The notes beneath the pieces were generated by a model that did not search any database, was not told the origin of the DNA, and saw only the letters and a program-made list of their open reading frames with translations. Shown one piece after another: positions 8,389 to 60,999 of a stretch of DNA of 64,000 bases. Source of the stretch: Nannochloropsis salina CCMP1776 (taxonomy: Eukaryota; Sar; Eustigmatophyceae; Eustigmatales; Monodopsidaceae); contig SDOX01000016.1 in the NCBI GenBank assembly GCA_004565275.1, positions 239,989-303,988 on the forward strand. Reading direction: 5' to 3'. Numbering within the stretch: the first letter of the stretch is position 1; every line of letters begins with the position of its first letter. Position numbers and translations under genes: made by a program.

Positions 8389-11300
8389 TTATTTGTGCGC
8401 TTTCTTGTGTAAAATCGCAGCCTGTGCCGCTGCCAACCGGGCAATCGGGACTCGGAAAGGCGAGCAGGAGACGGAGTTCAGGCCCAATTCCTCACAGAAT
8501 TGCACGCTCTTCGGGTCTCCCCCTTGTTCGCCGCACACACCCAGGGCCTTATCGTCCCCTCCCTCCGCCCCCCGCACCCCCTCTACAGCCACGCGCATCA
8601 ATTGACCGACGCCTTCCACGTCGATGGTCGCAAAGGGATCTTTCTCCAGAATTTTCTCCTCCAAATAGCGGGGCAGGAACCCCCCAATGTCGTCCCGGGA
8701 AAATCCAAAAGTGGACTGGGTCAGGTCGTTCGTGCCAAAACTCGCGAACTCCATCATCGGCGCCAGACTCCTCGCGTTCAAACAGGCGCGAGGGAGCTCC
8801 AGCATGGTCCCGACTTTATACTCCAGGACCGCCTTTTTCTCCTCCAATACCTGCCCGGCCGTGGCGTGGACTAATGCGGACGCCACCTCCAGTTCCTTGG
8901 CCACAGACACTAAGGGGATCATGATCTCGGGCCGAGGGTCATACCCTTGCGCTTTCGCTTCCAGGGCGGCGTGAATCACGGCACGGACTTGCATCTCGCT
9001 GATTTCCGGGAAGGCCAAGCCCAATCGGCAGCCGCGAAGGCCCAGCATGGGGTTCACTTCTTCCAGCGCCTTGATCTTGTTGGCAACCAGCGTCGCGTCC
9101 TTTCCGATTCGTCCCGCCAGTGCCGCGATGTCCTTGGGCTCAGAAGGGAGGAATTCGTGCAGGGGCGGGTCGAGGAGGCGGAAGGTGACCGGAAAGCCCG
9201 ACATGACGGAGAAAATCTCCCGCATGTCTTCCTTCTGGAAAACGAAGAGTTTTTCCAAGGACTTGAGGCGCTCGGCCTTGTCGTTCGCGAGGATCATCTC
9301 CCGGACCACGTCGATCCGAGCGGGCCCAAAGAACATGTGCTCGGTGCGGGAGAGCCCAATGCCCTCCGCCCCTAACTCCCGCGCTTTGCGGGCGTCGTCT
9401 GGGGTATCCGCGTTCGCCTTCACTCGCAACCGCCGGAGCTCGTCCGCCCAGTCCAGCACTTTTTGGAAATCCGCGTCCGACGTGGAGCGTATCAAGGCGA
9501 CTTTCCCTTCCATGACCTCTCCCGTGGACCCGTCAATGGTCAGCGTGTCCCCTTTGTGCAGCACCCGCCCCGACCGGAGCAACGTCAGGGTCTCCTTCGC
9601 GTTGTCCACCTCGATCTCGTGGCAGCCGCTCACGCAGGGAGCCCCCATCCCACGGGCAACGACGGCGGCGTGGGAGGTCATGCCCCCGTGCTGGGTCAGG
9701 ACGCCCTTGGCGCTCTACGGGGGGAGGAGAGGAAGGGGAAGGGAGTGGAGCAACGTTCAGACAGCATGGCAACGAAAGACAGGCTTGCCTCTTTGCCCCG
9801 GCGACACTGCAGCAAGGCTTTTTGTCGTCTGTCGCTTTTTGCTCCGACCCCCCCTCCCTCCCTCCCTCCCTCCCTTTCTTTCCCCCCTCCCTCCCTCCTC
9901 CCTCCCCCCCCTCCCTCCCTTCCCCCTCCCTCCCTCCCTTTCCCCTCCCTCCCTCCCTCCCTCTCTCTCTGACCTTCATCCCGTGCACGTCCTCCGCCGT
10001 CGTCTCCTTCCGCACCAAGAGCACGTCCTGCCCTTCCTTCGCCAAGACTTCGGCCTCGTCACTCGTGAAGCATAGCACCCCAGTCCCCACGCCCGGGGAG
10101 GCCGGCAAGCCCTTGGCCACGACCGTCTTGGCCGCTGAAGGGTCGATGGTGGGATGCAAAAAGAAGTCCATCTGCTTGGCGTCGATGCGTAGCAAGGCTT
10201 CCTCCTTGCTGATCAGGCCCTCCTCCACCATCTCCACGGCCATTGTCACGGCGGCTTTGGCAGTGCGTTTTCCTGACCGGCATTGCAACACGTACAGTTT
10301 GCCTTTCTCCACAGTGAACTCAATGTCTGCAGGGAGGGAGGGAGGGAGGGAGGGAGGGAGGGAGGGAGGGGAGGAGTGCGGCCCCAATGTCAGCTTCCAC
10401 GACACGCGTTTTCGTCGCCATGACGCGCCTCTTCCCGCCCCCATCCCTTTCACCCCTCTTTCTCCCATTCCTACCCTGCATGTCCCTATAGTGCTTCTCA
10501 AGTAGGTCGAACACGCGCAGCAGCTCTTCGTACAGCTGTGGATTCTGCGCCTTCAGGCCTGTCAAGTCCTCCGGGGTCCGTATCCCAGCCACCACGTCCT
10601 CGCCACACGCGTTTTGAAGGTATTCCTGTCCGGTGACAGGGAGGGATCCGGGAGAAGCGGGGGTCACGGAGGGTCGGGTCGAGAGGGAGGGAGGGAGGGA
10701 GGGAGGGAGGGAGGGGAAACCCTACCCCGAAATGCACGTTCTCCCCGGTGCTGGGGTTGCGAGTGAAGGCAACGCCCGTGCCCGAGTCTTCGCCCATATT
10801 GCCGAAGACCATGCTCTGGGTGACAGGGAGGGAGCGAGGGAAGGAGAGAGGGAGCGAGGGAGCGAGCGAGGGAAGGAGAGAGGGAGGGAGGAAGGGAGAG
10901 AGGTTACCAGCGATGCCACAAAAGAAGGTATGGCGCTTCACCGGCACACTCGTCTCTCCCCGCCCTCCCTCCCGCCCGCCCTACCTGCACCGTCACCCCC
11001 GTCCCCAGGGTCTCGGGGATATCGTTGTACTGCCGGTACTTGATGGCCCGCGGGGTCATCCAGGAAGAAAAGACCGCCCGAATCGCCAACTGAAGTTGTT
11101 CGTGGGGGTCAGCGGGCACGGTCGTCACCTCCTTGTACCGGCGCACCATCTCCTCCCAGTCCGTGGCTTGCATGTCCGTGTCCGAACGGTACTCCTTGCT
11201 GGCCTTGTAGGCAACCAGGAGGTCGTCGAACACCTCCATCTTCATGCCTAGCACCACGTTCGAGAACATCTGCAAGAAGCGCCGGTAGGTGTCATACACC

Positions 11301-21062: not shown

Positions 21063-22517
21063 TCACCGCTCCGCTTCCCTAACTGCCTCCTCGCTCTCAA
21101 CCTCCCCTTCCAAACGTTGAATCGCCCAGGACAGATGCTCCTTCACCATCTCGTCGTTTTCCTCCTCCCACACCTCCCTCAACACCGCCAGCAATTCTTC
21201 CCCGTCCTCCCCTTCCTCCCCCTCTCTTCCTCCGCCTTCCCCACTGTTACCCGCCGCCACCGCCACATTCCGCAGCATTCTGGCCCTCCCAATCCGTGTG
21301 ATAGGTGACCCTGTAAACCATTTCATAAAACCCGCGTCAGACTTTAAGGCTCGTAACAAGTCCGCCAATACCGGGGTGCTGAGTTTCAGGGAGGACGCGG
21401 AAGGAGGGAGGAAAGGAGGGGTGGAGGGAGAAGACGGGGCCGAGGGACTGAAAAGTGTTTTGGGTTGGTTGTCCGGCCAAGACCACCGGTTCCAAGGGCA
21501 GACTTGCTGACAAATATCACAACCGTACACTAAATTCTTCATGGAGGGCCGCAACTCGATGGGGATACTCCCTTTGTTCTCGATCGTCAGGTACGAGATG
21601 CACCGCCTCGCATCGATAGAGTACCCATCTTTATGAATGGCTTGCGTGGGACAGGCGGAGATGCAGCGTCGGCATTTTCCGCATCCCCCCGACTTTTTTC
21701 GGGGAGTTTCGGGCGGTAGCGGCAGCGTTGTTAAGAGCTCAGCGAGAAACGTTCCGCTCCCAAGGTGCTCGTTGATCAACAACGTGTTCTTTCCCACAAA
21801 GCCTAAACCTGCACGCTCCCCCAGATCCCGTTCCATTAACGGGCCAGTGTCCACGTACCATCGCCCACGGCCCCCGTAACGAGTATGCATCCATTCAGCC
21901 AGCGCCTTCAGACGAGGGGTGATAATGTTGTGGTAGTCCTCGCCCCACGAGTAGCAACTGATGACCCCACGCTTCTTAGAGGCAGAGTGACCCGGGCGGA
22001 CGGGTGACGGGCCCAATGTAGTGGAGGAAGGCGCGGCGTGCATGGACGATGCCGGAGGAAAGCCTTTCTTGCCGGGCCAATACAGCGTCATTGTACAAAT
22101 GACGGCTTGCAATCCTGGTAAAATCAGATCCAAATCAGCGCGTCGAGCCAAACGGTCCTCCCGAGCCAAATAACCCATTTCTCCATGCTTTCCTTCCTCG
22201 ATCCAGGCTTTGTACTGCTCAAAGCGACTCGACGGCTCCGGCGTGGTCACTCGTGCACGGGCGAACCCCAAGCTTTCCGCATGCTTTTTGATCTCCTCCC
22301 GGACATCTGACCATCCACCTGGGAAAGTCGCGACCAGAGCTTCGTTCAGAGGACCTCCATCGCACTCCGGTTGTCTCCGTCTCCCTCGTCGGCGCGGGGG
22401 GGAGGTTGAGAGTTTTTCAGGAGAACTGGCAATGCTTGAGAAAATGAGACGGGATATTTTCCATGGTCCACGACCCGATGCGTACGTTTCCCTCACGCGA
22501 ACGAAGCGCCGACTCAT
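21063..22517 (-). CDS. queG: Epoxyqueuosine reductase QueG-like
   Basis: Intronless, 484 residues from the first ATG (MSRRFVRVRETY); a TTG eighteen bases upstream is not used. QueG performs the last step of queuosine synthesis in tRNA, reducing epoxyqueuosine to queuosine with cobalamin and two 4Fe-4S clusters. The diagnostic parts are present: the cobalamin-site region YVDTGPLMERDLGERAGLGF followed by VGKNTLLINEHLGSGTFLAE (the Asp of VDTGP is the proposed acid), the ferredoxin motif CGKCRRCISACPTQAI, the YLTIENKG motif, and the second cluster motif CDICQQVCPW. A C-terminal HEAT-like tail (ARMLRNVAVAAGN..., then WAIQRLEG) matches bacterial QueG. An N-terminal ~55-residue Arg/Ser-rich extension absent in bacteria may be an organelle presequence. 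An enzyme of this pathway in a eukaryotic nucleus suggests bacterial or organellar origin. Confidence 0.93.
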   Translation of the reverse strand: MSRRFVRVRETYASGRGPWKISRLIFSSIASSPEKLSTSPPRRRGRRRQPECDGGPLNEALVATFPGGWSDVREEIKKHAESLGFARARVTTPEPSSRFEQYKAWIEEGKHGEMGYLAREDRLARRADLDLILPGLQAVICTMTLYWPGKKGFPPASSMHAAPSSTTLGPSPVRPGHSASKKRGVISCYSWGEDYHNIITPRLKALAEWMHTRYGGRGRWYVDTGPLMERDLGERAGLGFVGKNTLLINEHLGSGTFLAELLTTLPLPPETPRKKSGGCGKCRRCISACPTQAIHKDGYSIDARRCISYLTIENKGSIPIELRPSMKNLVYGCDICQQVCPWNRWSWPDNQPKTLFSPSAPSSPSTPPFLPPSASSLKLSTPVLADLLRALKSDAGFMKWFTGSPITRIGRARMLRNVAVAAGNSGEGGGREGEEGEDGEELLAVLREVWEEENDEMVKEHLSWAIQRLEGEVESEEAVREAER

Positions 22518-50467: not shown

Positions 50468-53400
50468 TCAAGTATAGGCTCCCTGCGACCCGAGGTACCG
50501 TTGCTCAATCAGGAGCACGGAAGGACTTTCTAAATCATAGTCTTCCTCTTCCTCTTCCTCCTCTTCGCCTATACCTTTGGGCCCGCTTGGTCCATCTCCC
50601 GTCACTCCTGACAACGTGGCAGCGCCCGCACGTCCTTGAGGCGTGAAGATGATACTAGGCACCACCATGCGAGGGAACAGGCGAACAGCGGCATTTGCCA
50701 GTCTGTCGGGTACAGAGGCGTGCCCAGCGGCTTCTGTCCCTGCATCTGTCGCTGGTGTTCCTGATAAAAGGACAGCATTTTCCTCGACCGGTGCATCTCC
50801 CTTCCGAAAAACGCCAGGACCGGCTGCGTTTCCCGACGCAAGAGGAGGTACAATCTCCTCCTCCCGCCCCTGACCTCCCCGTTTCACACTCTTGCCCTCC
50901 CCTCCTTCCCGCGACTGCAAACGTTCTCCCTCCCCACCGGGCGCGTGTTCGCACTGACCCTCATGGAGGGGATCCAGCGGTCTTCTCTCCATCTTCGAGT
51001 CCTTGATTGGCTCCTGGGAACCGGCCTCGGAAGGATGACATCCCGAGTCAGGGGGAGGGGCGGGAGAGACCTCTGACTGCGCAGGAAGAGGGGCCTCCCG
51101 GGCGCCGAAATCTTCCTTCCATGACGCTTCCTGACCTGAGTCGCGCTGGTCGCCCTCAACTCCCCCACTCTCCTGAACCTTCGAAAGGCGGACCTCCAAG
51201 GCCTCCACCTTTCGCTGAAGCCGCTCGATGTGCTGCTGCTGCGCGCGAAGGAGAGCTTCGATGCCTGGTCCCTCCTTCCTTTCCTCCTCCTCCCCGTACT
51301 CCCCCCCCTCCTCTCCCCCCTTCCCTCCAATTTCCCCAATTGCCCTCTCAGTCCGGAACCCAGGCGCCGTCTCCCGGCTTTCGGGTGCGTCCTCGCAGGA
51401 GTCGTGAACTTCCCCCAGCTCGTCACTTTCCCCTTGCCTGGGACCGGACCCTGCGGCGGGCGTGGCACCAAGCTGCGTACACCTCCACGATGAAGGAGGG
51501 GCGGGGGATGCGATGGGAGGGAGGGCATGCAGGAAGGAAGAGTAGGAGGCGGAGGGGAGGTTGCTTTCAAGCGTAAGGCAGGAGACTGCCTCCCTGTCGG
51601 GGTAGTGCGGTCCGTCCTGGCAGAGGGGCGAGGCGGAAAAGGATGGCGAGGGCGGGAACGAACGGGGGAGAGGACATGGCATCCGGCGAGGGGAAGGGGG
51701 AGGAGAGCAGTCGTGGGTGGGGGAGGGAGAAGGAGAGGTGGGATTGGGTGGAATGGCCCTGGGGTCGGCGCAGTAGAGGGGCCCAGGCCTCGCGAGTGGG
51801 GCGGCTACATAAGGATCTGGGGCGGCAGGGGGAGATGCGCGCGCCGCTCGCTCCTCCTTGGCTGCTGTGCACTGCTTGTCTATCCCTCCCTCCACGCCCT
51901 CGCCGCCCGCTCCTTTCCCTCCCTTGGCCCCGCACCCTCTGTCTGATGGGGGAGGCTGCAGAGCGCTGGCAAAGGCGGCCGCGCGAGCCGGGGAGGAAGC
52001 GCTCCGGAGGCGCCCTACTATCACGTCCTCCCACACGTGCCCCTCCTCCCCCTTTTCCTCCCTCCCTTCCCCCTCCTCCTGCTCCAGGCAGACGTCCATC
52101 GTGAAGTCGAGGAGCTCCAGCGGGGGGGCAGGAGGCGCGTGGGAGGGCCCGGGGGAGGGCGAGGAGGGGAGGAGGGAGGGAGGGAGGGAGGGACCGGTAG
52201 GCTCGAGGAGTTTCGCCTCAAAAAAGTGTGGGGAAGACCCAGGGAGCAGGCAGGCAAAGAGACACGTCCCCTCCTCCATCGTGACCTGCCGCCGTCCTGG
52301 GCCGGGACCTCCCTCCCTGCCTCCCGCCCTCCCTGCTTCCACCAGGTACCTGTACAGAGCCTGCCAGACCCGGGGGTGCCGAAGCGCATCCGCTGTCTGC
52401 TTGTGTCTCGCGCGCCCCCGCAGCCCGTGGGGCGCCACCCACACCCCCACCGAAGGGGGAGGAGGTTGGGAAGGGAGGGCGGGGGCGGTCGACGTGGCGG
52501 GGAGGAAGGCGACGCGGCGGGTTTCCGTCAAGGTCAGGAGGCCGTGGGGCGGAGCGCAGGGCCTCGCGACGTTATTTCGAGTGCATGGGGAGGAGGAGGA
52601 GGAGGAGGAGGAGGAGGAGGAGGAGGGGAGCAAACCCGATGCTGCCAGGGCCTGCCAGACGGGGGAGGGCGCCGTGGGCAGAGAGGCCAAAGGCGTGAAG
52701 CGGAGGGAGAAACGGGGAAGGATCTGCTCGACACGGAGACTGAGGGTGTCGGGGGAGGGAGAGTGGGCGGACAGGCGCAAGGACGGGTAGAGGGTGGAGG
52801 GAGGCGGCAGGCTCTGGGAGTTGTCGGTGCCGCCCTTCATGGACCAGTAGGCACGCGTGGCAGAAATGCACGTGCGGTACCTCTCTTCCAGGCCCTTTCC
52901 ATCCTCCTCCTCCTCCCGTGCCGTGGCGGCGTGGACCCCGACGGGCAAGGTTACCGGAGCTCCCCCCTCTCCCTCCTGAGGTCCCTGACCGTCGAATATT
53001 CCTCCGTCCGTCGGCTCTTGGGACCCGGGGGGAGGATCCTGCAGCAGCAAGCTGAAGGGAGGAAGCTCCCTCTCGCTCCTGGCCAGAGAGTGAGGAGGGA
53101 GATGACGCAGACATGCGAGCGTCGTGCAGAAGGCGGCGGTGACAGAAAGCTTCTCATTCGACGGCCCGGAAAAGCCCGCCCCGCCCCGAGGGAGAGGCCT
53201 GAGGTCGAAGGAGGCTTGGAGGGGACGAAGTCGGGCGTGCAGGACACCCAAGGCAGGCAAAGGCAGGAGAAACAACGGGGCTAAAACATCTACGGATGAA
53301 AGCGTCAGAATCTTGCCTCCGCAGGCGCCGCGTGGCCACAGCATGTCGTTGGTAGCTGGAAAGGTGTGGAGTCTTTGGTATTCGTCTTTCCTCCTCATCG

Positions 53401-53785
53401 AGACGTTTCCGAAATGATGCGCCTTTGGAAGTCTAATTTGTGCCAATATTTTGCTTTTCGTTTGCTGTTCAGCCTCTTCCATCGCATTTAATGGTGTGTC
53501 ATGCCTGAGGCCCGGAGTATCGCTTTCTCCCTCCTCATTCCAACAAGACGATGTCTCAAATTCATCTTCCTCCTCGTCCTGGGGGAAGTAAGCGGATCTA
53601 ATCACAGCCGCGGGATTCCATGATCCATTGTCACGCGAACAATGTGCAGCTGTAGCAGGTCGAATCGGAATGGAAGAAGCAGAGCGTGGGGATGAGGTCG
53701 AATAGAGACTTTTGTTTCCCGCAGGTTTGCCAACCACCCTGCGCCGTGGCCTTCGGACGGGGGAAGAAGAGCCAAATGCTGGCAT
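50468..53785 (-). CDS. STIL: STIL / Ana2 / SAS-5-like centriole assembly protein
   Basis: An intronless frame of 1,105 residues. In the N-terminal half the STIL_N pattern can be read: GLLTLTETRRVAFLPA, then SVGVWVAPHGL, LRHPRVWQALYRYLVEAG, EEGTCLFACLLPGSSPHFFE and AKLLEPTG; human STIL has [56 protein letters not shown] in the same order. A coiled coil GIEALLRAQQQHIERLQRKV...LEVRLSKVQ lies near residue 790, where STIL has its oligomerising coil, and the last residues (YDLESPSVLLIEQRYLGSQG) resemble the STAN motif that binds SAS-6. Between are low-complexity Ser/Pro-rich parts with a run of Ser from a (TCC)n tract. STIL binds PLK4 and SAS-6 to start procentriole assembly. Similarity is by eye, so the name is tentative. 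Confidence 0.72.
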   Translation of the reverse strand: MPAFGSSSPVRRPRRRVVGKPAGNKSLYSTSSPRSASSIPIRPATAAHCSRDNGSWNPAAVIRSAYFPQDEEEDEFETSSCWNEEGESDTPGLRHDTPLNAMEEAEQQTKSKILAQIRLPKAHHFGNVSMRRKDEYQRLHTFPATNDMLWPRGACGGKILTLSSVDVLAPLFLLPLPALGVLHARLRPLQASFDLRPLPRGGAGFSGPSNEKLSVTAAFCTTLACLRHLPPHSLARSERELPPFSLLLQDPPPGSQEPTDGGIFDGQGPQEGEGGAPVTLPVGVHAATAREEEEDGKGLEERYRTCISATRAYWSMKGGTDNSQSLPPPSTLYPSLRLSAHSPSPDTLSLRVEQILPRFSLRFTPLASLPTAPSPVWQALAASGLLPSSSSSSSSSSSSPCTRNNVARPCAPPHGLLTLTETRRVAFLPATSTAPALPSQPPPPSVGVWVAPHGLRGRARHKQTADALRHPRVWQALYRYLVEAGRAGGREGGPGPGRRQVTMEEGTCLFACLLPGSSPHFFEAKLLEPTGPSLPPSLLPSSPSPGPSHAPPAPPLELLDFTMDVCLEQEEGEGREEKGEEGHVWEDVIVGRLRSASSPARAAAFASALQPPPSDRGCGAKGGKGAGGEGVEGGIDKQCTAAKEERAARASPPAAPDPYVAAPLARPGPLYCADPRAIPPNPTSPSPSPTHDCSPPPSPRRMPCPLPRSFPPSPSFSASPLCQDGPHYPDREAVSCLTLESNLPSASYSSFLHALPPIASPAPPSSWRCTQLGATPAAGSGPRQGESDELGEVHDSCEDAPESRETAPGFRTERAIGEIGGKGGEEGGEYGEEEERKEGPGIEALLRAQQQHIERLQRKVEALEVRLSKVQESGGVEGDQRDSGQEASWKEDFGAREAPLPAQSEVSPAPPPDSGCHPSEAGSQEPIKDSKMERRPLDPLHEGQCEHAPGGEGERLQSREGGEGKSVKRGGQGREEEIVPPLASGNAAGPGVFRKGDAPVEENAVLLSGTPATDAGTEAAGHASVPDRLANAAVRLFPRMVVPSIIFTPQGRAGAATLSGVTGDGPSGPKGIGEEEEEEEEDYDLESPSVLLIEQRYLGSQGAYT
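52590..52626. repeat. (GGA)n / (TCC)n trinucleotide tract in the STIL-like gene
   Basis: A run of about 12 GGA units on the plus strand gives a poly-Ser stretch in the minus-strand protein. Its length in codons keeps frame. Such tracts are polymorphic. Confidence 0.9.
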
Positions 53786-54200
53786 CTATACCCTCAGATC
53801 CTAATGTGTCAGATGTATGTGTACTTGCTGCGTAAGAAGGCACGCATGAGTGTGCAGCGGAGCATTCTCACCTCAATCCCAAGGGGGGAGGAGGCTTTTG
53901 CCGCCTTTTTGGGCCATCGCCAAAGGAAATTGAGCGAGGACCCTGATACCTAACTTAGGACTTTTGATGGGCAATGTCATGTGAGACACACGCCTTTAAA
54001 GCCGCGTGTGCGTGGTTCAATCGTTGCGAGATGACTGTTTGAGCGAGGAGAAGCGTGCGTCGGTCTTTTGACTGTGCCGCTGGCTCACTTTTACGTTCTA
54101 AAAAACGAAGCAAAGAAAGTACGGGGCCTTTCCTGCCTTTCCACCCAAACTTGAAAATCCATTGCCTCCATTTTCTCCATTTCCAGGTGGATTACGCAGT
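53786..54200. promoter_or_regulatory. Shared divergent promoter of STIL-like and CM1 genes
   Basis: 415 bp separates the two ATGs. A CCATTTTCTCCATTTCCAGG acceptor-like sequence lies 14 bp before the CM1 ATG and may end a 5' UTR intron. No known cell-cycle element was identified with confidence. Co-regulation of the pair is inferred. Confidence 0.5.
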
Positions 54201-57200
54201 ATGGATGCACCTGGTGCCCATGGAGCCGGCGGGACGGCTCTGGCTTTCACCGGGGAAGCCATTCCGCTGCGCCGAGATATAGACTTACTCAAGGGCGGGC
54301 AGCCCAAGACTCTCAACGAAATGGAAGCCGAGCTGCATTCGTTGCACAAAGAAAATTTCGATCTCAAGATGACCATTTACTACCAGAAAGATAAGATTGA
54401 GCGCCTGAATGGCGGGGAAATGGATTCTGGGGAGAGGGAGCGGGACTTGGAGGAGCACATTGCCGATTTGGAGTACCGAATGCAAGAGAAGGACGCGCGC
54501 CTCGAGGAGCTTGAGGCCTTCCTGGCCCATCATCACCAGCAAAAGCAGGTCCAAGGGCCACAAGACCAGGAACGACAAGATCCCCAGCTCCAGAGCCCCC
54601 GCGATTTGAAGGACGAGATGCGGCAAGTGTCAGCGGAGGCGGTGGCCGAGGCCCAGGAGGCATTGGCCCGGGAGAAGGCAGTCTTTGAGGCTCGTCTGGG
54701 AGAGTTGCAGCAGCTGTTGCACCGCGCAGAAAACGAAAAGCGCGTCTTGGAAGGGGAACGTGCACAGGCGAAAGAGGAGGCGGAAGAGAATTTGAGAAAA
54801 CTATGCGAAATGGAAGCGGCCAAGAAAGGGGTCCAGACCGAGATGGAGACGCGCTTGTCGGAGGCGCAGGAGGCGCTGAGGGACACGCAGGCACGGCACC
54901 AAGCCGATCTGGCCCGTGTGCAGGAGAAGGCGGCAGAAGCGTTGTCCGCTGTCTCCAAAGAGTCCGGCCCACGTGTGACGGAGGCGGGGACTCGAGGCGC
55001 GGGAGCGGAGGAGGTGGCGGAGGAGACGGCTCGTACGGCGGAAGCACTCCGCTTGCGGGCCGAGATGGCCGAGCAGCAGGTGAGAAAAATGGCACTAGAA
55101 GTGGACGAGGCCCAGCAAGAGGCTCGAAGACTGCGGTCGATGCGAGGGGAGGAAGAGGCCACGGCCTCTGCATCGGCCAAAGCAGCCGTGTGGCGGGAAA
55201 CCCTGGAGGCGACTCGTCAGGAGCTTCGGCGCGAACGCTCCGAAAAGGAGGCGGCCTTACGTTCCCTGGACGAAGAACGAGAAGCACTGCGGCAAGAGAG
55301 GGGCGCCTGGCGGCAAGGAGAGAGGGGGGCATGGGCGGAGCTCACGGCGCTCCGCAACCAAGTCGCCACCGAGCAAAGGTCGAAGGACGCGTTGCTCTTG
55401 GACATGGCGGACATCCGGCGCCACGGGAAACAGCAATTGCGCGAGCTTTTGGGGGAGCTGAAAGAATTTGACCGGGTCGTGGAGAGGAATTTTGCGGAGC
55501 TCTTTGAGGCGGCAGCAAGTGCTGCCGAGGCCCAGGACGTACCGATCAATACTCCGTTGAAAGACCTGCTCGCTGCGGAGGAAGACGCAAGCCGTCGGCG
55601 GGGGCTCTTGCGCTTAGGCGGCATGAGCGACCCATCGCCGACGAAGCAACTGGCCTTGGCCTTGGAGGAGGAACGGGGGGAAGGTGGTTTGCCGGGGGGA
55701 ATGGGGGGGGAGGGGACCCTGGGGGAGAGTCGAAGGGGTAGCCACGCGCTCGTCGCCTCTGGCGGGACCTCCTTGAGCATGCCAGCCAGCGGCAAATTGA
55801 TGGTTCGACAGGCGCAGGATTTGGTCCGGAAGTGGAGGCTCAAATTGGAAGTTCTTCCCTCCTTTAATCAACGTTTCCGGGATGCCATTGCCCGCGCCGG
55901 CGTCGCGTTCGAGAGCCGACTCGCGCACATGACCGAGCGTTTGGCCAGCCAGGGGAACCAAGTCCAGGACGCGTACGATAAATTGGGAAGGCTCCAAGCA
56001 AGCAGAAGAGATACTGAAGAGGATCATGCCCGGGAAGTTGCCCGGGTCAAGCGGCGGGTGCAATCGGAATATCAGGAATTGCTCGCAGAGGTGACGGCGG
56101 AGAAAAATGCCTTGACCGCACGAGTGGCTCGGATGGAGGCGGAAAGGACAGTGGCAGTGAAAGAGGCAAAGGCGGCTGGGAAAGAAGAGGTGGTCACTAA
56201 GCACGGACAAGAATTACTTGAGAAGGAGAAGGGTCTACAGGCGGCAAAAGAGGAGGTTGTTCAGTGGACCGGGCGGTGTAAGGCAGAAACGGAGGGGAGG
56301 GAGCGCGTGGAAAAAGAATTAAAGGCCTTGGCTGGAGAAAAACGAGAAATTCAGACGGAGTTGGATAGGCTGCTGCGTCAGCTGCAGTACCGAGACGACG
56401 TCATCGCCGTCCTGAAAGAGGCGTTGGACAGCCACGGCTTGGGAGAGTCGCGGCAGATCACTGCCCAGCTTGCCTTACTTGAAAGGCACATGGCCAAGGT
56501 GGACGGAGAGGGCAGAAAGGAGTGTGGACGCGGGGGACAGCGGGTGGTGTCGCTCATCAAGGAGGGAATGGAGCATGCTGCGGCGCACTTGATGACGGTA
56601 GGCGCCTCGCAAGGGTGGGAGACTGGCGAGCTTCTGCGACGTGCCGACGAGCTTCAGCGTTACGGCTTTGAAGTTGCGGCCTTGGTAACTAGCACAAAGC
56701 AGATGCTGGAGGAGCTCAAATCGTGGGATGCACAGTGCCAGGGGCCAGATATTGCCGATAGCAAGAGTGGTGGAGGGAAGCACTTGGTAGAGAAGCTGCT
56801 GGAGGACAACGCCCGTCTTGCCCGCCTCCTCCGTGAGCTTCATCAGGACCTGCAGCATCTTGTGCAGCGAGTCCGCGTTTCCTCCCCCCCTCCTGGGACG
56901 AACCGCGGCGCCAGTAGTTTCTCAGCGAGGTGCAATCCGGCCCCCGTTGGCAACTTTGGCAGTCCCCTGCGTCGAGCTGCCCAAGAAGCGTTGCCCCATG
57001 CCTCTCCTTCCCTTGATCGTCTCAAACTTGCCGCCCATTGCAGCAAGAGCAGTGGTGGCGTTGGGGTTGGGTGGAGCAATCGTGAGGAAAACAACAACCA
57101 CGAATTCCTTCGGCGTGGGCACATCGAAAACCAGGACATATATTTACAATCAAGTCGATCGCTTCATAGCCGGGGGGAGAGCATGACCGAACCGTTCAGA

Positions 57201-57515
57201 ATGAATTCAGGACCCTCAGAAACTGGACATGTCGCGCAGAGTTGCCTTGATACAAGTTTGGCGAAGGCCAGTGATCAAGGAAATGGAGGGAAAGGGCAGG
57301 GCATTTTGGCACGGCATCAGATCGGGAGGCGGGGCCAGGCGAGTGGATCAAAGCCTCTGGCGAACTTGGAAAAGATATCGAATGACTTACAAGAGATTGC
57401 TGCCAAGCTTGAGCACTTCAAATCCGGAGTTAAACTCCCCGGTACAACACTAGCATCAAGTCCTGAGCAAGGTAAACGAACGCACACCCGTCGGTCAAGA
57501 AGGGAAGTACCGTAA
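54201..57515 (+). CDS. CM1-domain (centrosomin/CDK5RAP2-like) coiled-coil protein
   Basis: Intronless, 1,104 residues from the first ATG (MDAPGAHGAGG); an upstream TTG in the frame is not used. The N-terminal segment KTLNEMEAELHSLHKENFDL and KMTIYYQKDKIERL matches the CM1 motif of centrosomin, CDK5RAP2, myomegalin and fungal Mto1/Spc110-type proteins (family: 'LKEFEKQI..LKKENFSLKLRIYFLEERL'), which binds and activates the gamma-tubulin ring complex. Most of residues 60-800 is Glu/Ala/Arg-rich coiled coil, with a break near residue 460-530. The C-terminal ~250 residues are less regular, with Gly/Ser-rich and basic stretches. It would sit at centrosome or basal-body MTOCs. The head-to-head neighbour is a STIL-like gene. 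Long coiled coils can be over-matched, but the CM1 block is specific. Confidence 0.85.
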   Translation: MDAPGAHGAGGTALAFTGEAIPLRRDIDLLKGGQPKTLNEMEAELHSLHKENFDLKMTIYYQKDKIERLNGGEMDSGERERDLEEHIADLEYRMQEKDARLEELEAFLAHHHQQKQVQGPQDQERQDPQLQSPRDLKDEMRQVSAEAVAEAQEALAREKAVFEARLGELQQLLHRAENEKRVLEGERAQAKEEAEENLRKLCEMEAAKKGVQTEMETRLSEAQEALRDTQARHQADLARVQEKAAEALSAVSKESGPRVTEAGTRGAGAEEVAEETARTAEALRLRAEMAEQQVRKMALEVDEAQQEARRLRSMRGEEEATASASAKAAVWRETLEATRQELRRERSEKEAALRSLDEEREALRQERGAWRQGERGAWAELTALRNQVATEQRSKDALLLDMADIRRHGKQQLRELLGELKEFDRVVERNFAELFEAAASAAEAQDVPINTPLKDLLAAEEDASRRRGLLRLGGMSDPSPTKQLALALEEERGEGGLPGGMGGEGTLGESRRGSHALVASGGTSLSMPASGKLMVRQAQDLVRKWRLKLEVLPSFNQRFRDAIARAGVAFESRLAHMTERLASQGNQVQDAYDKLGRLQASRRDTEEDHAREVARVKRRVQSEYQELLAEVTAEKNALTARVARMEAERTVAVKEAKAAGKEEVVTKHGQELLEKEKGLQAAKEEVVQWTGRCKAETEGRERVEKELKALAGEKREIQTELDRLLRQLQYRDDVIAVLKEALDSHGLGESRQITAQLALLERHMAKVDGEGRKECGRGGQRVVSLIKEGMEHAAAHLMTVGASQGWETGELLRRADELQRYGFEVAALVTSTKQMLEELKSWDAQCQGPDIADSKSGGGKHLVEKLLEDNARLARLLRELHQDLQHLVQRVRVSSPPPGTNRGASSFSARCNPAPVGNFGSPLRRAAQEALPHASPSLDRLKLAAHCSKSSGGVGVGWSNREENNNHEFLRRGHIENQDIYLQSSRSLHSRGESMTEPFRMNSGPSETGHVAQSCLDTSLAKASDQGNGGKGQGILARHQIGRRGQASGSKPLANLEKISNDLQEIAAKLEHFKSGVKLPGTTLASSPEQGKRTHTRRSRREVP

Positions 57516-58584: not shown

Positions 58585-59076
58585 ATGAAATGTGCAGCAT
58601 GGTTAATAGTCATCTTTTCCCTCTCCAAGATACAGACTATGCGTGCCTTCCAAACGCTTGTAAGTCTTTTCGTAGTGCCGTGCGCACTGGCTTCACCTGT
58701 ACTTTTCACTTCCTGCCATGAAGATGAAAGCCCACTTATGCTCGAGTCAATGGAAATTAATCCGTATCCCGTCAAAGCCGGAGGAACGAGCAATGTTGCA
58801 GTCACCGCACGAAGTACAGTTGCACTTGAGCAGGGCAGTTACGTTGAAATGAGTTTCAAGGAGGGTCCGTTCATGGGTGCCGTAAAGAAATATGACATGT
58901 GCTCAATGTCAGATCAGGACTGTCCTATTCCGGCGAACAGTCTTGTCAAGTTCGAGCTTGACTTTCGGGTAGACTCCCGCGCGAGCAACGGTATCGCTAC
59001 TGGTAATGTGATGGTTTCTGACCACACGGGTGCTGAGATCGCATGCATCCGCGTCCCCGTTCAAGTAGACCACTGA
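58585..59076 (+). CDS. ML-domain (NPC2-like) lipid-binding secretory protein
   Basis: 163 residues, intronless. The signal peptide covers about residues 1-37 (alternatives: start at Met 58639, MRAFQTLVSLFVVPCALASP). The mature part follows the ML domain: FTSCHEDESPLMLESMEINP, PVKAGGTSNVAVTARSTV, QGSYVEMSFKEGPFMGAVK, then CSMSDQDCPIPANSLVKFEL and GAEIACIRVPVQVD. The Cys spacing, GP before a Lys/Tyr, and C-P-x-x-A are as in NPC2 and fungal PG/PI transfer proteins, which carry sterols or phospholipids between membranes in the endomembrane lumen or outside the cell. A related, broken copy lies head to head. Ligand unknown. Confidence 0.88.
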   Translation: MKCAAWLIVIFSLSKIQTMRAFQTLVSLFVVPCALASPVLFTSCHEDESPLMLESMEINPYPVKAGGTSNVAVTARSTVALEQGSYVEMSFKEGPFMGAVKKYDMCSMSDQDCPIPANSLVKFELDFRVDSRASNGIATGNVMVSDHTGAEIACIRVPVQVDH

Positions 59077-59550: not shown

Positions 59551-60999
59551 TCACGCCCAAATCGCAATCACACTCATCGCTCCCGCCCCCAACAAAACAC
59601 ACATCATCATTTGTATCTGCCAAATTTTGTGCTGTCTTACTTCTCTTCTGCTGAACTCCTCCTGCAAAATATCCACCAACGCCAAGTATATCAAAATGCC
59701 TGCGGCAAAAGCATTAAAAATGCCTTCTACAAGCGCCGCCTCCCGGGACTCCTCGTCGTACATTTTACTGATGCCGATGCCTATGACAATCCCCAAGCTG
59801 GTGGTGATGGAGAAAAGGCCGAACATGATGGCATTCTTCATGCGGGGCAGGCGGGCTTCCAGGATACACGTCGATAGACCCGCGCCTTCGAAAAATTGGT
59901 GGACCGATATCGCGACAAGCAATGTCCGGGTATTGTTTATGGATGAGGTGGCCGTGCCCAGACCGATACCGATCAAGACGGAATGGAATACGATACCAAC
60001 CTCCATGATGTACGCAATCACAAGCGAATGATTTTTGAAGGCCTGAACAACGTGCACTGCATCGTTGTGCCCGCCGCCCTCATGGAAACTATGGTTGTGC
60101 CCGTCGCTGCCGAAGGAGGGTTGCTTCTGCACTGCGAGGGAGCGGGCGCTGAGCATCGTCTTCAAAGAAGCTTGGGCACGGGGGGAAACGAAGGGCAGCT
60201 GCGCGAAGGGCGAGGAGGGAGCTTCTCCAGCGGGTGCCACGCCAGGGCTGCGCATGCTCGGCGGGGGGGGGGGGACGATCTGCAAGTCTGTGGGCTTCTT
60301 TCGACCAGTAAGAGCGGCCCCTACTGGTGTGATGGGTGCATGCTGATGCTCGTTCCCACTGGCGCCGTCTGCCCCTTGTCGTGCAGCCTGCAAAAATTGC
60401 TTCTGGGAGGCCGTCAGCCCCTCTTGCGCAGCGGCCTCTTCCAGGTGAATGCTGGGTGCCCGGGCGGAAGGGGAGGTGTCGGGGGCGGAGATGACGACTT
60501 TGCTCATGTTCAAGGACGGGTCTCGGCCCATACTGACCATGTCGACGCCGCCCGTGCTGGAGGGGCCGGGGGGGCGGCTCTTCCGCCCCATGCTCGAGAC
60601 CACGCCGTCCACGACCTGGGAGAGGGCAAGGACCACGATGGAGCCCATCATGGCGACAAAGAAGGCTAGGGGGAAATCCACAAGCTCCTCAAGGGTCTCG
60701 TTCGCTTCTGCCAGGACATGAACAAAGCCAACGCATAAAATGATGCCGGCACTGAAGCTTTTTAGCAGGTGCATGGCATGAGCCCCGTGAAAAACACGCT
60801 CCCCGTCTGTTTTGTTCCGAGAAGAAGGAGTCAGAGGCAGATTACCTCCAAACTTGGCTCGTCCGTCCAAATCAAGTACGAGGAGGGGGAACATGCAGCC
60901 CAAGGCTGATACCACCATGATGACGAAGACTGAACCAATGCGCAGAGGCAGCGTCTCTCCACTCTCCTGGCCGAAGGCAGACTCGTCCAGGTCTGCCAT
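59551..60999 (-). CDS. ZIP-family metal transporter
   Basis: 482 residues from the first ATG (MADLDESAFGQ); a GTG twelve bases upstream in frame is not used. No introns are needed. ZIP proteins move Zn, Fe or Mn into the cytosol. Eight hydrophobic helices can be placed: three before, five after a cytosolic loop of about 190 residues with many Ser/Pro and a His-rich stretch (GHNHSFHEGGGHNDAVH). The signature helices are present: HSLVIAYIMEVGIVFHSVLIGIGLG (helix IV with H and G) and LVAISVHQFFEGAGL (helix V, H-x-x-x-E-G). GIVIGIGISK, AFAAGILIYLAL and the last AMSVIAIWA helix end it. It resembles IRT/ZIP-I proteins of plants and fungi. The long loop is typical of regulation by metal binding and turnover. 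Confidence 0.93.
   Translation of the reverse strand: MADLDESAFGQESGETLPLRIGSVFVIMVVSALGCMFPLLVLDLDGRAKFGGNLPLTPSSRNKTDGERVFHGAHAMHLLKSFSAGIILCVGFVHVLAEANETLEELVDFPLAFFVAMMGSIVVLALSQVVDGVVSSMGRKSRPPGPSSTGGVDMVSMGRDPSLNMSKVVISAPDTSPSARAPSIHLEEAAAQEGLTASQKQFLQAARQGADGASGNEHQHAPITPVGAALTGRKKPTDLQIVPPPPPSMRSPGVAPAGEAPSSPFAQLPFVSPRAQASLKTMLSARSLAVQKQPSFGSDGHNHSFHEGGGHNDAVHVVQAFKNHSLVIAYIMEVGIVFHSVLIGIGLGTATSSINNTRTLLVAISVHQFFEGAGLSTCILEARLPRMKNAIMFGLFSITTSLGIVIGIGISKMYDEESREAALVEGIFNAFAAGILIYLALVDILQEEFSRREVRQHKIWQIQMMMCVLLGAGAMSVIAIWA

Follow-up and report, generated by a model that had tools for sequence, protein, structure and literature searches.

STIL connects the PLK4 switch to the SAS-6 cartwheel; to our knowledge, it has been described mainly in animals. 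In the animal pathway as outlined in PMC10645514, PLK4 phosphorylates STIL, which binds SAS-6 as the cartwheel is begun and binds CPAP for wall formation. CM1 proteins activate gamma-tubulin rings. According to PMC10425847, STIL, SAS-6 and CPAP are often missed in orthology searches owing to their divergence, PLK4-driven centriole assembly is found in metazoans only, and 386 cilium-linked genes are traced to the last eukaryotic common ancestor. A wide distribution of STIL may already be on record in that paper. A search by titles and abstract starts, whose coverage leaves out most subscription papers, returned no paper on an algal STIL. As this view of the literature is limited and a wide distribution may be on record, we do not claim the protein described here as the first algal STIL.

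The locus lies in a window of 64,000 nucleotides, the whole stretch of DNA that was analysed (contig positions 239989-303988), from a genome of 26.5 Mb in 103 contigs. It comprises two divergent genes and the region between them:

50468..53785, minus strand: STIL-like ORF, 1105 aa in a single open frame, based on the ORF and the database fragment P0001
53786..54200, no strand: divergent intergenic region of 415 bp
54201..57515, plus strand: CM1 (centrosomin/CDK5RAP2-type) coiled-coil protein, 1104 aa, based on the ORF and a profile match

The original prediction of two long divergent reading frames (1105 and 1104 codons) separated by 415 bp was confirmed, with both frames running from ATG to stop without a break. 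At about 60% G+C, we estimate that an open run of 1100 codons has a chance probability of about 1e-16, which places the frames far beyond chance. Furthermore, counterparts of both products exist in the protein database. For the minus-strand protein this is a near-identical fragment of 687 aa (P0001), while the plus-strand protein has two, namely P0002, at 96% over the full length, and P0003, at 48% in the database search and 54% in alignment A2. Paralogy of the two products was rejected (best BLASTP E = 0.77); as the proteins are not related to each other, their near-equal length is a coincidence. Judged from the spacing, a regulatory region common to both genes is possible, and the pair may be co-regulated.

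The plus-strand gene is securely identified as a CM1 gene of the centrosomin type, as had been proposed. It carries the following motif:

54309..54518, plus strand: CM1 / Cnn_1N motif, residues 37-106, 30.9 bits, key residues kept

In the Pfam search, Cnn_1N (PF07989) matched these residues at 30.9 bits against a curated cut-off of 28.5, and no second family was found in the protein by Pfam at E <= 0.1. The gene is the sole Cnn_1N match found in the genome. Residues L70, F75 and L77 of human gamma-TuNA, which are required for binding and activating the gamma-tubulin ring complex (PMC9859039), are identical in the plus-strand protein (L48, F53 and L55), and I67 and F63 correspond to L45 and M41. 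The only relatives returned by the protein-database search were P0002, with a Cnn_1N score of 30.9 bits, and P0003, which at 28.4 bits falls just below the cut-off of 28.5 and has the same gamma-TuRC-binding positions as the plus-strand protein at 54% aligned identity. The genome also contains gamma-TuRC partners in the form of three GCP_C_terminal matches above cut-off and thus supplies the complex with which a CM1 protein is expected to interact.

Judged from its sequence, the minus-strand protein is probably a divergent STIL. It had been predicted to carry a STIL_N domain, with the lack of an HMM match named as the refuting outcome; the original interpretation of the gene pair is partly supported. 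The refuting outcome applies to the raw protein, in which the domain was not detected. It is reversed only once low-complexity stretches have been deleted, the domain then appearing, at scores below the cut-off, in one manual and five of 12 objective edits. The region in question contains the following features:

52016..53479, minus strand: residues 103-590, searched as the STIL N-terminal domain and rich in low-complexity stretches
52202..52747, minus strand: residues 347-528, which in the best-scoring edit match positions 154-289 of the STIL_N profile; the core of this match is shared with BLASTP and hhalign
52589..52624, minus strand: run of 12 serines inside the domain, residues 388-399, encoded by a GGA-type triplet repeat (array 52589-52630)

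Low-complexity runs occur throughout the protein, and residues 1-600 contain 12% P and 11% S. Without editing, STIL_N was absent from the Pfam results at E <= 10, both for the full protein (0/1) and for its N-terminal pieces (0/2), and Pfam, PDB sequence and NCBIfam searches with the unedited protein gave no STIL. When low-complexity runs were deleted by hand, STIL_N was the only family found (E = 7.7e-4, 18.9 bits). Because a hand edit could be steered, we applied edits that follow blind rules and scanned 12 of these objective edits, namely two entropy rules on residues 1-600 and ten rules on residues 103-590, the latter range having been chosen from the hand edit. Both strong entropy edits (2.2 and 2.4) lacked STIL_N, and the ten rules yielded STIL_N in five cases and no family in the other five. 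STIL_N is thus the sole Pfam family in five of the 12 objective edits, with E-values of 7.1e-5, 3.1e-4, 1.3e-3, 4.1e-3 and 7e-3, and the remaining seven are without any match. The best objective edit (E = 7.1e-5) reached 22.3 bits; over objective and manual edits together the scores were 15.8-22.3 bits and thus all below the curated cut-off of 27. The match always spans profile positions 154 to 286-290, which back-mapping of three of the five positive variants assigns to residues 347 to 525-529. It belongs to the latter half of the domain; the first half was undetected.

The dependence on editing fits another reading, in which the minus-strand protein is unrelated to STIL, largely disordered and lineage-specific, the STIL_N signal arises by accident when a P/S-rich sequence is edited, and the adjoining CM1 gene, though genuinely an MTOC gene, stands apart from it. 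Low complexity throughout, the lack of STIL_N without editing and the seven of 12 objective edits that found nothing speak for this reading. We nevertheless consider it unlikely, since the positive objective edits give STIL_N alone out of 24736 families, and since STIL_N was found in none of 11 reversed or shuffled control sequences. The controls comprised the hand edit reversed plus four shuffles of it, and the best objective edit reversed plus five local shuffles (six of the ten made were scanned). A PLD_C match on one shuffled control (E 0.074) and a Med13_N match on one N-terminal piece (E 0.089) were taken as chance. Because STIL_N had been named beforehand by the original prediction, a single-model probability can be used: dividing 7.1e-5 by 24736 models gives about 3e-9, a value not corrected for the scanning of 16 constructs (one full protein, two pieces, one manual edit and 12 objective edits).

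The core of the pattern is also seen in the unedited protein, which is a further point against an editing accident. When compared to a human STIL sequence of non-database origin, which itself scores 657 bits against PF15253, the unedited protein gives a BLASTP match at residues 414-485 (E = 7e-4). With hhalign, its comparison to the sequence of 5OI9 together with this human STIL sequence points to the same place with P = 0.0012, at a probability of only 19.5. This two-sequence profile works near noise, and the score of the raw protein was reached by 4 of 3000 local shuffles; when the whole protein was edited, none of 5000 shuffles reached the score. In a set of 578 ORF fragments, drawn from the window and the fetched loci and searched if they had at least 60 residues after editing, L018 and L019 outscored the STIL-like protein with the two-sequence profile (6.3 vs 5.6 bits); these two seem to be a single other locus represented by overlapping copies. 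As a point of method, low-complexity stretches can conceal a STIL_N-like domain from Pfam.

Downstream of this domain, three further features of the minus-strand protein were compared to STIL:

51671..51691, minus strand: PRxxPxP motif PRRMPCP, residues 699-705, the docking consensus for the CPAP TCP domain
51170..51265, minus strand: short stretch that probably forms a coiled coil, residues 841-872, without specific likeness to the coil of STIL
50471..50536, minus strand: C-terminal tail that had been called STAN-like, residues 1084-1105, resemblance not significant

As stated in PMC4554922, STIL binds the CPAP TCP domain through the consensus PRxxPxP. The minus-strand protein contains this motif once, between the STIL_N-like domain and the coil; with a chance of 0.07 in the proline-rich residues 601-840 (0.145 for the whole protein), it is weak as sole evidence. 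A candidate peptide for the algal CPAP TCP domain is SPRRMPCPLPRS.

The proposed STAN-like end is not supported, and the coil did not stand out as STIL-type. A likely coil is present, with eight of ten a/d positions occupied by I, L, V or M in the best register of residues 841-876, yet it resembles the STIL coil no better than other coils do. Its score of 27 was equalled or exceeded in 260 of 2000 shuffles and in 19 of the 180 windows taken from coils of other proteins. Higher scores were obtained for CPAP (38), the CM1 protein (33) and others; moreover, across the whole minus-strand protein the STIL coil fits best at a place outside residues 841-872. Matches of the coil to SlyX, Spc19, ANG-1 and Csm1 were taken as generic coil matches. 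For the C-terminal end (residues 1021-1105), 740 of 2000 shuffles reached the score against a human STAN sequence, likewise of non-database origin. Both results count for the reading as an unrelated protein, as does the outcome of two protein-database searches, each of which scored about 8000 candidates sharing most words and found only the near-identical fragment P0001 as a homolog. A search of viral contigs with the minus-strand protein returned nothing.

The missing STAN and STIL-specific coil, together with a domain match limited to its latter half, also bear on whether a STIL_N-like (MPN/ATG7-N-like) binding domain might belong to a protein of another family, such as an MTOC scaffold, with the true STIL elsewhere in the genome. 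The structure 5OI9 is the N-terminal domain of Trichoplax STIL and has two MPN-like subdomains, and the fold of this domain resembles ATG7-N and MPN domains, according to the part of PMC5928214 used here. Of all the families in the library, however, STIL_N is the only one matched. Searching the genome itself with PF15253 and the human STIL sequence found nothing; this is uninformative, as the search had no working control and PF15253 misses the present locus too. We regard an origin from another family as very improbable.

Support from elsewhere in the genome comes from the partners of STIL. SAS-6 is present (SAS-6_N, 61.7 bits), as is CPAP (Tcp10_C, 67.2 bits). Eight residues of zebrafish CPAP are described as STIL contacts (PMC3776556), and all eight are identical in the CPAP of this genome (F825, Y842, Y844, H851, T853, F864, Q868 and E870), with an overall identity of 37/92 (P = 4e-4 for keeping 8/8). 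The chain numbering was set from the described construct and fits all eight letters; folding, rather than STIL, may be the reason why some of these residues are conserved. A CPAP with a STIL-binding surface leads one to expect that the genome also encodes a STIL partner, which argues against the minus-strand protein being an unrelated one. A PLK4-like kinase is encoded at L021:1506-5012, where the four best PDB sequences are all PLK4. Its ORF shows weak matches to Plk4_PB1 and then PB2, in order and below cut-off (E 0.086 and 0.14), and the kinase match sets in only at profile position 53, which leaves the beginning of the N-lobe outside this ORF. The presence in the genome of SAS-6, of a PLK4-like kinase and of a CPAP whose STIL-binding surface is intact thus favours a STIL identity. 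Furthermore, epsilon-tubulin is clear (372 bits to a human sequence of non-database origin, about equally far from beta and gamma), and a second tubulin is probably delta-like by its sequence scores (99.8 bits to delta and 89.4 to epsilon, human sequences of the same kind).

Genes of a motile flagellum also occur in the genome. We found IFT46 and IFT57 as well as four dynein stalk matches in all, and both dynein heavy chains tested are of the outer-arm type. The first of these has its best match in the alpha chain of 7KZM, which we take to be an outer arm. No match to the radial spoke family was found, which is uninformative. Two FtsZ-type proteins are encoded (loci L006 and L009), and one of them looks plastid-type by eye, which fits an alga. 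For Nannochloropsis, PMC4736243 is the source for the statement that no flagellate stages have been reported; if the organism is Nannochloropsis-like, its flagellar genes are at odds with this.

Taken together, a STIL/Ana2 scaffold next to a CM1 activator of the gamma-TuRC is the best explanation of the locus and a likely one, in which the binding steps, the localisation and the co-regulation are inferred. The minus-strand gene product would be a fast-evolving, insert-rich relative of STIL/Ana2 that acts as a scaffold in centriole assembly. Its N-terminal MPN-like domain would dock at the parent centriole, PRRMPCP would bind the TCP domain of the CPAP, and the short coil would oligomerise the protein and probably meet the PLK4-like kinase. 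The protein could thereby aid SAS-6 in building the cartwheel, and the CM1 protein would act at the basal body or the spindle pole, where it would bind gamma-tubulin ring complexes and activate them. This mechanism is drawn by homology to the animal pathway.

A bolder proposal, for which we see somewhat less than an even chance, is that PLK4 with polo boxes, STIL, SAS-6 and CPAP with a STIL-binding surface occur together in an alga and predate animals, contrary to the statement in PMC10425847. The divergent promoter of STIL and CM1 might then turn on centriole birth and microtubule nucleation at once, perhaps in a flagellate stage that is rare or has yet to be described. Independently of this bolder proposal, confirmation of the STIL identity would place the STIL step outside animals. 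An alga with a STIL-like protein and a CPAP whose docking surface is intact would indicate that the animal-style trigger is old, and would offer an organism with a small genome for testing this trigger.

When comparing the locus to known systems, differences and likenesses are found for each protein. The kinase encoded at L021 differs from PLK4 in its sub-threshold polo boxes and in the N-lobe start that is missing from the ORF, and resembles it in having a kinase domain followed by weak polo boxes 1 and 2 in order. Compared to the centrosomin/CDK5RAP2/Mto1 family, the plus-strand protein has M in place of F63; it shares L70, F75 and L77, has L for I67, and likewise carries CM1 near the N-terminus of a long protein rich in coiled coils. 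The minus-strand protein is unlike STIL/Ana2/SAS-5 (PF15253; 5OI9, 4BXR, 4YYP) in that its STIL_N match is below the cut-off, is seen only after removal of low complexity and omits the first half of the domain, and in that its coil is not STIL-specific and its STAN resemblance not significant. Its length is similar to that of zebrafish STIL (1105 vs 1263, the latter from PMC3776556). Like STIL/Ana2/SAS-5, it shows the order of a STIL_N-like domain, PRxxPxP, a short coil and a C-terminal tail, and it occurs in the same setting, with CPAP, SAS-6 and PLK4-like genes in the same genome.

The window and the loci fetched from the genome of the same alga (G000) contain the following features; the four genes listed for the window are neighbours of the STIL-like and CM1 genes.

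Window 8389-9681, minus: PEP-utilising enzyme, C-terminal part
Window 21063-22517, minus: QueG-like epoxyqueuosine reductase
Window 52589-52630: GGA triplet array within the STIL_N-like domain
Window 58585-59076, plus: ML-domain protein
Window 59551-60999, minus: ZIP zinc transporter
L021:1506-5012 (G000:C61): PLK4-like kinase ORF
L022:1048-3720 (G000:C19), minus: CPAP
L026-L029: dynein heavy chain stalk matches, genome search

The GGA array codes for a run of 12 serines, which is likely a fast-varying insert.

The dynein heavy chain stalk matched only four times in the whole genome, and both of the two chains examined resemble outer-arm chains. The flagellum may be reduced. The radial spoke family gave no matches in the genome search, an absence that carries no weight.

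When aligned to zebrafish CPAP, the TCP domain of the algal CPAP covers about 92 residues ahead of the C-terminus and appears shortened, to about half the animal length. Despite this, all STIL-contact residues (8/8) are the same as in zebrafish.

The top PDB sequence match of the kinase is PLK4 (119 bits), and weak Plk4_PB1 and PB2 matches both lie downstream of the kinase. This is noteworthy because PMC10425847 restricts PLK4-driven centriole assembly to metazoans.
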